Shown here: positions 31,774 to 34,814 of the stretch, piece after piece
How positions within the stretch are numbered: the first letter of the stretch is position 1
Layout: each line of letters starts with the position of its first letter
From: Sphingobium fontiphilum
GTDB taxonomy: Bacteria > Pseudomonadota > Alphaproteobacteria > Sphingomonadales > Sphingomonadaceae
NCBI RefSeq assembly: GCF_014196635.1
Contig: NZ_JACIEB010000001.1
Span: 248,001 to 312,000 of the forward strand
Direction of reading: 5' to 3'
Length of the DNA stretch: 64,000 bases
Translations under genes and position numbers: made by a program
The notes under the pieces: generated by a model
Seen by the model: only the letters and a program-made list of their open reading frames with translations
Told to the model about the DNA's origin: nothing
The model's database searches: none

Positions 31774-33021
31774 ATGGCCACCGAAGTCAAAGTCCCCGCG
31801 CTGGGCGAATCCGTTACCGAAGCAACCGTTGGTCAGTGGCTGAAGAAGCCCGGCGAGGCGGTGAAGGCCGATGAACCCATCGTCAGCCTGGAAACCGACA
31901 AGGTCGCGGTTGACGTGCCTGCGCCGGTCGCTGGCGTGCTGGGCGACATCGTCGCCAAGGAAGGCGACACTGTCGAGGTCGGCGCGCTGCTCGCCTATCT
32001 GAATGAGGGCGCAGCCGCAGCCGCAGCCGCTGCTCCGGCTGCTGCGGCAAAGGCGGAAGCCGCCGCGCCCGCGCCCGCCGCTTCGGCGCATGTCGCCCCC
32101 GAGGAGGAAGGCGATACCGGCAGCCTGACCCTGTCGCCGGCCGTTCGTCGGCTGGTTCTGGAACATGGTCTTGACCCGAGCAAGATCAAGGGCACCGGCA
32201 AGGATGGTCGCCTGACCAAGGACGATGTGATGGCCGCGATCGCCGCGGGCACCGCGAAGGCTGCTGCTGCTGCGGTCCCAGTTGCGGCCGCCGCCGCCGA
32301 AACGCCGGCCGCTGGCCCCAGCCGCAAGCAGGAGCGGGTGAAGATGACCCGTCTGCGCCAGACGGTCGCCAAGCGCCTGAAGGAAGCGCAGAACACCGCC
32401 GCGCTGCTCACCACCTACAATGATGTCGACATGACGAACGTCATCGAGGCGCGCGCCAAATATAAGGACCTGTTCGAAAAGAAGCATGGCGTCCGTCTGG
32501 GCTTCATGGGCTTCTTCACCAAGGCCGTGTGCATGGCGCTCAAGGACATTCCGGGCGTCAATGCGCAGATCGAGGGCGACGAGATCGTCTATAATGATTT
32601 CTGCGACATTTCCGTCGCGGTTTCGGCCCCCAACGGTCTGGTCGTCCCTGTGATCCGCAATGCCGAAAGCATGAGCGTTGCGACGATCGAAAAGACCATC
32701 GGCGGCTTCGGCAAGAAGGCCAAGGACGGCACGATGACCATGGAAGATATGAAGGGCGGCACCTTCACCATCTCCAATGGCGGCGTGTTCGGTTCGCTGC
32801 TGTCCAGCCCGATCATCAACCCGCCCCAGTCGGCGGTGCTGGGCCTGCACCGGATCGAGGACCGCCCGGTCGTGCGCGACGGGCAGATCGTGATCCGGCC
32901 GATGATGTATCTCGCGCTCAGCTACGACCATCGCCTGATTGACGGCCGCGAAGCGGTGACGTTCCTTGTTGCGGTGAAGAACGCGATTGAGGATCCGACC
33001 CGTCTGCTGATCGACCTGTAA
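31774..33021 (+). CDS. sucB: Dihydrolipoamide succinyltransferase (E2o)
   Basis: 415-residue E2 core of the 2-oxoglutarate dehydrogenase complex. One lipoyl domain (lysine in ETDKVAVDV, residue about 43) is followed by an Ala/Pro linker (about 80-112). A peripheral-subunit-binding domain ([20 protein letters not shown]) leads to an acyltransferase domain ending in the catalytic [13 protein letters not shown]. The Ala-rich linkers are long, as usual in alphaproteobacteria. Directly downstream lies the GIY-YIG/palindrome cassette, which separates it from lpd. Confidence 0.96.
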
Positions 33022-33035
33022 GGCCTATTTCCCAC

Positions 33036-33065
33036 GTGCTCCTGCGAACGCAGGAGCCCCGGGCG
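33036..33065 (+). repeat. REP-like palindrome (type C), left copy
   Basis: Thirty-base unit containing the perfect hairpin CTCCTGCG-AA-CGCAGGAG (33039-33056). Its orientation is opposite to the copy at 33367-33396, which it matches at 27 of 30 positions. It begins 15 bases after the sucB stop. Confidence 0.85.
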
Positions 33066-33099
33066 GAGAAATGCAACGAAAGCGGGATATGTCTATCTG

Positions 33100-33363
33100 A
33101 TGGCCAGCCGACGCAACGGCGCCCTCTATCTGGGTGTTACAAGCGATCTGGCTGGCCGGACATATCAGCATCGCAACGCTTTGGTTGAAGGCTTTACGAA
33201 GCGATATGGCTGCACCATGTTGGTGTGGTTTGAGTATTATGATGATTTGCAGGAAGCGAGGCTTCGCGAACTGCAGATGAAGAAATGGAAGCGCGCCTGG
33301 AAGATCGAGTTGATCGAACGGGGAAATCCGCAGTGGCGGGATTTGTTCGAGACGCTGTTCTGA
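33100..33363 (+). CDS. Single-domain GIY-YIG endonuclease, N terminus apparently frameshifted
   Basis: 87 residues from the first in-frame ATG. This is a small UvrC-like GIY-YIG nuclease: LYLGVTSDLAGRTYQHR holds the YIG half and catalytic Arg, EARLRELQMKKWKRAWK holds the metal-binding Glu, and ERGNPQWRDL is the usual C-terminal motif. The GIY half (GYVYLMAS) is encoded just upstream at 33085 in the same frame, but no ATG, GTG or TTG precedes it before the sucB stop. An ATG at 33071 in another frame would restore MQRK-AGYVY if one base had been lost near 33080-33084, so the gene is probably a recent one-base frameshift. It is bracketed by inverted REP-like palindromes inside the sucB-lpd gap. 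Confidence 0.75.
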   Translation: MASRRNGALYLGVTSDLAGRTYQHRNALVEGFTKRYGCTMLVWFEYYDDLQEARLRELQMKKWKRAWKIELIERGNPQWRDLFETLF

Positions 33364-33366
33364 CGA

Positions 33367-33396
33367 CGCCCTGGGTTCCTGCGTTCGCAGGAACAC
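33367..33396 (-). repeat. REP-like palindrome (type C), right inverted copy
   Basis: Contains the perfect 9-bp hairpin GTTCCTGCG-TT-CGCAGGAAC (33375-33394). Its reverse complement matches the copy at 33036-33065 at 27 of 30 positions. It starts three bases after the GIY-YIG stop and ends 17 bases before lpd. Confidence 0.85.
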
Positions 33397-33413: not shown

Positions 33414-34814
33414 ATGGCCGAGTATGATTATGACGTTCTGGTGATCGGCGCTGGCCCCGGCGGCTATGTCGCCGCGATCCGGGCGGCGCAACTGGGCCTG
33501 AAGGTGGCATGTGCGGAAAGCCGCGAAACGCTGGGCGGCACCTGCCTCAATGTCGGCTGCATCCCCTCCAAGGCGCTGCTCCATGCGTCCGAACTCTATG
33601 ACGAAGCGGCCAATGGCGCCCTAGCGAAGCTGGGCGTCAAGATCGACAAGATGAGCCTCGATCTCGATACGATGCAGGGCCAGCGCATTGATGCGGTCAA
33701 GGGCCTGACCGGCGGGATCGAATATCTGTTCAAGAAGAACAAGGTAACCTGGATCAAGGGGCTGGCGAGCTTCACCGGCCCGAACACGGTCGAAGTGGCG
33801 GGCCAGAAGGTGACGGCGAAGAACATCGTCATCGCCACCGGTTCGTCGGTCGCGCCCCTGCCGGGCGTGGACGTCGACAATGCAAAGGGCATGATCGTCG
33901 ATTCGACCGGCGCGCTGGAGCTGACCAGGGTGCCCGAGCATCTGGTGGTGATCGGCGGCGGCGTCATCGGTCTGGAGCTGGGCAGCGTGTGGCGTCGCCT
34001 GGGCGCAAAGGTGACCGTGGTCGAATATCTCGACCAGATCCTGCCCGGCATGGACGGCGAAGTCCGCAAGGAAGCCAACAAGATCTTCAAGAAGCAGGGC
34101 TTTGAATATAAGCTCGGGACGAAGGTCACGGGCGCAGCGGTCAAGGGCAAGAAGGTTGAACTGACCGTCGAGCCTGCCGCCGGTGGCGATGCTGAGACGA
34201 TCAGCGCCGATTGCGTGCTGGTGTCGATCGGCCGCCGTCCTAATACGGCGGGCCTTGGCCTCGACAAGATCGGGCTGGAGCTGAATGCGCGCGGTCAGAT
34301 CGAAACCGACCATGATTTCGCGACCAGGGTGCCCGGCGTCTGGGCCATTGGCGACGTCATCCCCGGCCCGATGCTCGCGCACAAGGCCGAGGACGAAGGC
34401 ATTGCCGTTGCGGAAAACATCGCTGGCCTGACCGGCATCGTCAACCATGACGTCATTCCGTCGGTGGTCTATACCAAGCCGGAAATAGCGGGCGTCGGCC
34501 TGACCGAGGAGGCAGCCAAGGAAAAGGGCGCGATCAAGGTCGGCAAGTTCCCGATGCTGGCCAACAGCCGCGCCAAGACCAATCACGAGCCTGATGGTTT
34601 CGTGAAGGTCATTGCCGACGCCGAAACCGACAAGGTTCTGGGCGTATGGATCATCGCCACGGTTGCCGGCACGATGATCGCGCAAGTCGCGCAGGCGATG
34701 GAATTCGGCGCGTCCAGCGAGGATATCGCCTATACCTGCCACGCGCACCCGACGCACAGCGAGGCGATCAAGGAGGCGGCGATGGCCGTGACCGGAAAGC
34801 CGATCCACATCTGA
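33414..34814 (+). CDS. lpd: Dihydrolipoamide dehydrogenase (E3)
   Basis: 466-residue flavoprotein reoxidising dihydrolipoamide with NAD+ for 2-oxo acid dehydrogenase complexes. The FAD motif GAGPGGYVAAIRAAQLG, redox disulfide GGTCLNVGCIPSKALLH, NAD-binding VIGGGVIGLELGSVWRRLG and the C-terminal catalytic HAHPTHSEA are all present. AGGAAGAAG precedes the ATG. It is the last gene of the TCA run, closed by a strong terminator. As the neighbour of sucB it is most likely the E3 of the 2-oxoglutarate complex. Confidence 0.97.
   Translation: MAEYDYDVLVIGAGPGGYVAAIRAAQLGLKVACAESRETLGGTCLNVGCIPSKALLHASELYDEAANGALAKLGVKIDKMSLDLDTMQGQRIDAVKGLTGGIEYLFKKNKVTWIKGLASFTGPNTVEVAGQKVTAKNIVIATGSSVAPLPGVDVDNAKGMIVDSTGALELTRVPEHLVVIGGGVIGLELGSVWRRLGAKVTVVEYLDQILPGMDGEVRKEANKIFKKQGFEYKLGTKVTGAAVKGKKVELTVEPAAGGDAETISADCVLVSIGRRPNTAGLGLDKIGLELNARGQIETDHDFATRVPGVWAIGDVIPGPMLAHKAEDEGIAVAENIAGLTGIVNHDVIPSVVYTKPEIAGVGLTEEAAKEKGAIKVGKFPMLANSRAKTNHEPDGFVKVIADAETDKVLGVWIIATVAGTMIAQVAQAMEFGASSEDIAYTCHAHPTHSEAIKEAAMAVTGKPIHI

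Follow-up and report, generated by a model that had tools for sequence, protein, structure and literature searches.

Ssn is reportedly a family of site-specific single-stranded nucleases of the GIY-YIG type, published from Neisseria in 2025 (Chenal et al., Nature Communications), and the neisserial enzyme is said to act on a repeated sequence (NTS) and to modulate natural transformation. GIY-YIG enzymes hydrolyze DNA and do not join it. Enzymes and repeats are also combined in the REP/RAYT systems (GTAG REPs, REPINs, TnpA-REP), in which one or a few bracketed enzyme genes are accompanied by many gene-less paired repeats. A further type of repeat, the CGTC REPs, was defined by Di Nocera et al. 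2013 (PMC3733652), who found them mostly as head-to-head dimers, equated the neisserial dRS3 with the CGTC-1 REP, and described them as apparently without a dedicated transposase.

The window, a stretch of 64,000 nucleotides from Sphingobium fontiphilum, holds a block of one small gene and two repeats between sucB and lpd. As judged from its sequence, the block probably consists of an Ssn-type GIY-YIG nuclease gene and a head-to-head pair of CGTC-type REPs, which the nuclease most likely recognizes.

The sucB-lpd block and its gene

The block and its two neighbors are made up of the following features.

31774-33021, + strand: sucB (2-oxoglutarate dehydrogenase E2), upstream neighbor outside the element, assigned from its ORF and from adjacent orthologues in syntenic loci
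33036-33065, + strand: left palindrome (REP), core TCCTGCGAACGCAGGA at 33040-33055 followed by a CCC/CCAGGG-type tail, conserved at sucB-lpd in relatives
33065-33068, + strand: Shine-Dalgarno-like GGAG, 7 nt before the ACG; a GGAG lies 4-7 nt upstream in most ACG orthologues
33076-33363, + strand: GIY-YIG nuclease gene, 95 aa, apparent ACG start at 33076-33078 and stop TGA at 33361-33363, assigned from Pfam, alignment, AlphaFold, and purifying selection
33367-33396, - strand: right palindrome (REP), inverted copy, core TCCTGCGTTCGCAGGA at 33377-33392
33414-34814, + strand: lpd (dihydrolipoamide dehydrogenase), downstream neighbor outside the element, assigned from its ORF

The earlier note had described a single GIY-YIG gene enclosed by two inverted 30-base palindromes in the sucB-lpd gap, and this arrangement is confirmed by the Pfam match of the gene and by a repeat search, in which the arms (33036-33065 and 33367-33396) are 30 nt long, 301 nt apart, and complementary at 27/30 positions (90%). 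When the genome was scanned for the 30-base unit, as the note had proposed, the exact core TCCTGCGNNCGCAGGA was found only at the two arm sites, in the 64-kb window and in the whole 3.4-Mb genome alike; slightly different forms do occur elsewhere, as gene-less head-to-head dimers.

The frame 33070-33360 hits Pfam PF01541 (GIY-YIG) at 1.6e-14, far above the cut-off. Residues Y7, Y18, G20, R28, H32, E65, and N84 are invariant when the window protein is aligned with 24 relatives. The AlphaFold model of the 95-aa protein has a mean pLDDT of 95.7 and comprises the GIY-YIG domain only. A comparison with the PDB places the model nearest to the solved folds of UPF0213 BH0048, Slx1, and UvrC (1zg2, 6seh, and 1yd6 among the best). 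The fold is shared with UPF0213/YhbQ-type GIY-YIG proteins and with the nuclease domains of UvrC and Slx1, but the similarity in sequence to UPF0213/YhbQ-type proteins is weak (E=0.016 to 1zg2). NCBIfam and PADLOC searches of the protein found no family and a PHROGs search gave weak hits only, so the protein carries no named or defense family label. Judged by its sequence, the gene is under purifying selection and its active site is intact. The dN/dS ratio is 0.05-0.23 against most Sphingobium orthologues, and the value of 0.72 for S. xenophagum is based on very few changes.

Before 33100 the frame holds no ATG, GTG, or TTG, and 33100 is already past the GIY tyrosine codon (33094-33096). As no usual start codon is present upstream of this tyrosine, the likely start is the ACG at 33076 behind the GGAG, and the gene likely spans 33076-33363. 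This ACG occupies the position of the ATG in Sphingomonas orthologues. It is the only plausible start in 19 of the 39 sucB-lpd orthologues, the window's included, and one further orthologue has ATT; the ACG-start loci besides the window are L051-L065, L073, L074, L081, L090, and L091. At other loci, 66 family members were compared, and not one has an ACG-type start. A frameshifted gene with the ATG at 33071 out of frame was also considered and was rejected, because about half of the orthologues have the same ACG arrangement and because the codons upstream of 33100 carry a synonymous excess (pS 0.77 vs pN 0.20). The ACG start would set the expression of the nuclease deliberately low, and its conservation suggests an unusual way to keep the enzyme scarce.

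Kinship and pairing of nuclease and palindrome

On sequence features, the window palindromes are probably CGTC-type REPs. With the CGTC super-family (PMC3733652) they share the hairpin with a stem of ~8-9 bp, a loop of 4-5 nt, and a CCA-like tail, and also the arrangement in mostly head-to-head dimers, the occurrence mainly in alphaproteobacteria, and the positions in operons and inside genes. The super-family is tagged by a terminal CGTC, TGTC, or CCTC; the window unit has GTG(C) before the stem and not CGTC, and CGTC stands there in relatives of the family from the window's genus. Additionally, no transposase or nuclease is associated with CGTC REPs in PMC3733652, whereas the window REPs adjoin a nuclease gene. 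Two of the gene-less dimers of the window genome (L011 and L017) read GTGCTCCTGCGAAGGCAGGAGCCCAGGG...CCCTGGGCTCC...GGAGCAC and have the stem-loop, the tagged unpaired end, and the CCA-like tail by which CGTC REPs are recognized.

The window protein is 59% identical to a relative from N. gonorrhoeae (51/86 aa, E=3e-40 pairwise). No other relative was found in an N. gonorrhoeae chromosome. The gonococcal gene lies amid 16 dRS3 copies in 3.3 kb, and with this dRS3 setting its protein is probably Ssn itself. This gonococcal protein in its dRS3 array makes the window gene most likely a member of the Ssn nuclease family. The homology extends over the whole single domain, the catalytic residues are intact, and a genome-specific repeat accompanies the gene. 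As in Ssn, the protein is a small single-domain GIY-YIG enzyme with cognate repeats around its gene and in the genome. The palindromes differ, with ATTCCC..GGGAAT in Ssn/dRS3 vs TCCTGCG..CGCAGGA in the window, and the window gene is further set apart by its single conserved locus at sucB-lpd, its ACG start, and its few genomic repeats. Two records of 2.17 Mb that are labeled as N. gonorrhoeae plasmids (NZ_CP119140.1 and NZ_CP119142.1) are chromosome-sized and look like mislabeled chromosomes.

The layout is also that of the REP/RAYT systems, but the enzyme is a different one. By Pfam and by fold it is a GIY-YIG protein and not an HUH tyrosine transposase; the two share no homology, and a joining activity is not expected of the window enzyme. 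Among the papers searched, none names GIY-YIG together with "repetitive extragenic palindromic" and none names it together with dRS3. The earlier note had known of no described REP/GIY-YIG system, a view that is not supported: the CGTC REPs have been described, and Ssn, a GIY-YIG partner of their neisserial member, has reportedly been published. Given this attribution of the neisserial relative, the block is not a new system.

The association of nuclease and palindrome was scored across the family. For the bracket score, the 200 nt upstream of a gene were compared with the reverse complement of its downstream flank, and the best ungapped match was scored. A score of at least 16 counted as bracketed, and windows shifted within the same loci served as controls. 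Among 69 relatives dereplicated at 80% identity, 49 (71%) are bracketed, vs 0 of 345 shifted windows. Arms that were paired across different loci reach the cut-off in 17%, vs 71% for arms of the same locus. About 29% of the dereplicated relatives have no bracket by this score, some being degenerate and some truly without. In a second sample, whose genomes are mostly Sphingobium-type, 36 of 40 further genes (90%) are bracketed vs 0 of 200 controls, and their palindromes are of many kinds that nearly all have a CGTC outer end (CGTCATGCTGAACTTGTTTCAGCATCCAT, CGTCACCCCAGCGAAGGCTGGGGTCTC, CGTCATGCCGGACTTGATCCGGCATCCA, and others).

Each such gene has a matching pair of palindromes, whose sequence varies from one locus to the next, and two paralogues in the same genome can each have a different palindrome; the window genome itself holds a paralogue (L003) with another palindrome. 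The more alike two proteins are, the more alike are their palindromes (Mantel r=0.48, p=0.001), also when the sucB-lpd set is left out (r=0.47). The bracket controls and the covariation with the protein argue that the pairing is specific and no by-product of repeat-rich gaps. The association between nuclease and REP that the earlier note had suspected is, in these comparisons, real, specific, and very widespread. The note had named two patterns that would speak against it, a gene at sucB-lpd without palindromes and palindromes that are equally common elsewhere and unpaired. Neither was observed: relatives with the gene at this locus are almost all bracketed, and palindromes away from such genes are common but often paired and inverted. 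The operon-gap position between sucB and lpd would also suit ordinary mRNA hairpins (attenuators or stabilizers), with the gene merely lying in the same type of gap. This explanation is very improbable, as bracketing is missing from the control windows, the covariation with the protein holds outside sucB-lpd too, and dimers occur inside reading frames as well.

A second GIY-YIG subfamily is represented in the window genome by a small UPF0213-like protein (L001, G000:C1:236482-236781), whose gene is bracketed by inverted CCGTTCGTCCTGAGCTTGTCGAAGGAC. In this subfamily, 9 of 30 relatives are bracketed at a score of at least 16 vs 0 of 150 controls (loci listed with L001: L165-L169, L184, L187, and L188), and the palindrome is unrelated to the sucB-lpd type. 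Many of the unbracketed matches are parts of far longer open frames and are perhaps not genes of their own.

History of the sucB-lpd site

GIY-YIG genes are found at sucB-lpd in Sphingobium, Sphingomonas, Sphingopyxis, Stakelama, Novosphingobium, Parasphingorhabdus, Erythrobacter, and Qipengyuania. A tree of 88 sequences, poorly resolved at most of its forks, requires 3 changes of the sucB-lpd label vs a shuffled mean of 29. By this tree, the sucB-lpd genes from across the Sphingomonadales form almost a single clade and may have a single origin. The near-single clade points to an old resident with losses, and we infer that the gene has mostly been kept vertically at this site. The distances of the gene and of Lpd correlate weakly (Spearman 0.22, within the permuted range), which does not prove purely vertical descent.

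The empty sites that the earlier note had looked for in relatives exist. In 30 sucB-lpd gaps of the window's genus (L131-L160), the gene is present in four and missing from 26. Two gaps are bare (26 bp), two hold another small gene with a secreted-looking protein (L137 and L158), and the remaining ones hold gene-less palindrome dimers of two kinds that belong to other REP families (grouped by eye; one degenerate). The varied contents of these related gaps suggest that the gap is a repeated landing place. Members of the family also recur in an apparent mdh-sucD gap (L027, L028, L043, L084, L111, L114, and L126; neighbors named by eye), and in Azospirillum a member separates sufB from sufC (L164), so that the family appears to have a taste for operon gaps.

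The gaps without the gene in most Sphingobium-type genomes would suit a true mobile cassette, in which the whole REP-giy-REP block would move and would have entered sucB-lpd by recent insertions. The several family sites per genome and two copies of an identical 438-bp unit with REP-giy-REP in the genome G035 are consistent with it as well. Mobility at sucB-lpd, which the earlier note had proposed, is at odds with the near-single clade of the copies there; moreover, no target-site duplication was seen, the ends of the G035 unit do not match the REP ends, and the DNA outside is partly similar. The cassette is unlikely on balance. In G035, the exact 438-bp unit stands at four contig ends (L235-L238) with outer flanks that are partly alike, and these are probably two recent genomic copies; four insertions were considered and dropped, two copies being the simplest reading.

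Empty alleles and a GIY-YIG domain would also be expected if the protein were a homing endonuclease that cuts both strands of sucB-lpd alleles without the gene. The chance of this is close to negligible, and the homing-type nuclease of the earlier note is not supported. The locus has no intron, the 95-aa protein has no domain for DNA binding apart from the GIY-YIG domain, and relatives are paired with palindromes in the same way at many unrelated sites, which indicates that the palindrome, and not the site in the host, sets the specificity. A homing endonuclease is inserted at one conserved host site and is specific for it, whereas this family has paralogues at many sites and a palindrome-linked identity.

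Turnover of REP dimers and possible roles of the nuclease

The window genome also has the same REP without a gene, in head-to-head dimers whose halves are separated by a short spacer (L011, L017, and L018, the second half of L018 being decayed). Two of these dimers are in frame within genes that were named from their translations, L017 within glyS (about 1497-1573) and L011 within a gene for an acyltransferase (E2; about 1446-1519). The two host genes are of an essential type. Six related genomes lack a dimer at the glyS site, the same dimer is present there in G004, and G022 and G018 have dimers of other REP families; G014 carries a near-identical dimer away from this site. From this comparison, REP dimers are gained, lost, or exchanged on a species time scale, and the gene-less dimers are polymorphic between species, being present, absent, or replaced.

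Genome-wide REP counts were obtained by pattern searches. Over 61 genomes, the REP pattern is found 18.4 times per genome vs 0.7 times for a control pattern, and the REP counts rise with the GIY copy number (Spearman 0.68). A few REP-rich genomes have one or no family gene (such as G045 with 55 REPs and no gene, and G051 with 73 REPs and one gene), which indicates that REPs can persist without the enzyme.

The nuclease could instead be a gatekeeper that cuts incoming single-stranded DNA at genome-specific REPs and modulates the recombination of foreign DNA, with REP spread as a by-product. Its closest characterized relative, Ssn, reportedly acts on natural transformation, and the 59%-identical gonococcal gene lies within a dRS3 array. 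The window genome has about seven loose REP matches, which makes REPs too sparse to police uptake generally, and the family spans many phyla. As the main role of the nuclease, gatekeeping is therefore somewhat unlikely.

In the preferred reading of an Ssn-type nuclease with its own REP pair, the enzyme would bind its palindrome as a single-stranded hairpin, at the replication fork or in incoming DNA, and would cut one strand at the hairpin. Repair after cutting would then copy or remove dimers and would be the likeliest source of their turnover and spread; since GIY-YIG enzymes hydrolyze without joining, REP dispersal would need host repair. The gene-bearing copy would be the source and the gene-less dimers its followers, like RAYT genes and REPINs. 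RAYT-like REP spread and control of incoming single-stranded DNA are candidate roles that do not exclude each other.

More tentatively, and with rather less confidence than for the block itself, GIY-YIG nucleases could be dedicated partners of CGTC-type REPs generally. Each lineage would have its own palindrome, which would be cut as single-stranded DNA and thereby drive the spread and exchange of gene-less dimers, as an enzymatically unrelated counterpart of RAYT/REPIN; the second subfamily would do likewise with the unrelated palindrome CCGTTCGTCCTGAGCTTGTCGAAGG. Widespread hairpin REPs that were long thought to be partnerless seem to have a partner enzyme of a recently described kind. With the bracketing and the covariation, the question of who moves or cuts CGTC REPs becomes a direct biochemical test, and the family offers a large natural set of nuclease/recognition-site pairs that would be useful for working out a specificity code of single-strand nucleases.
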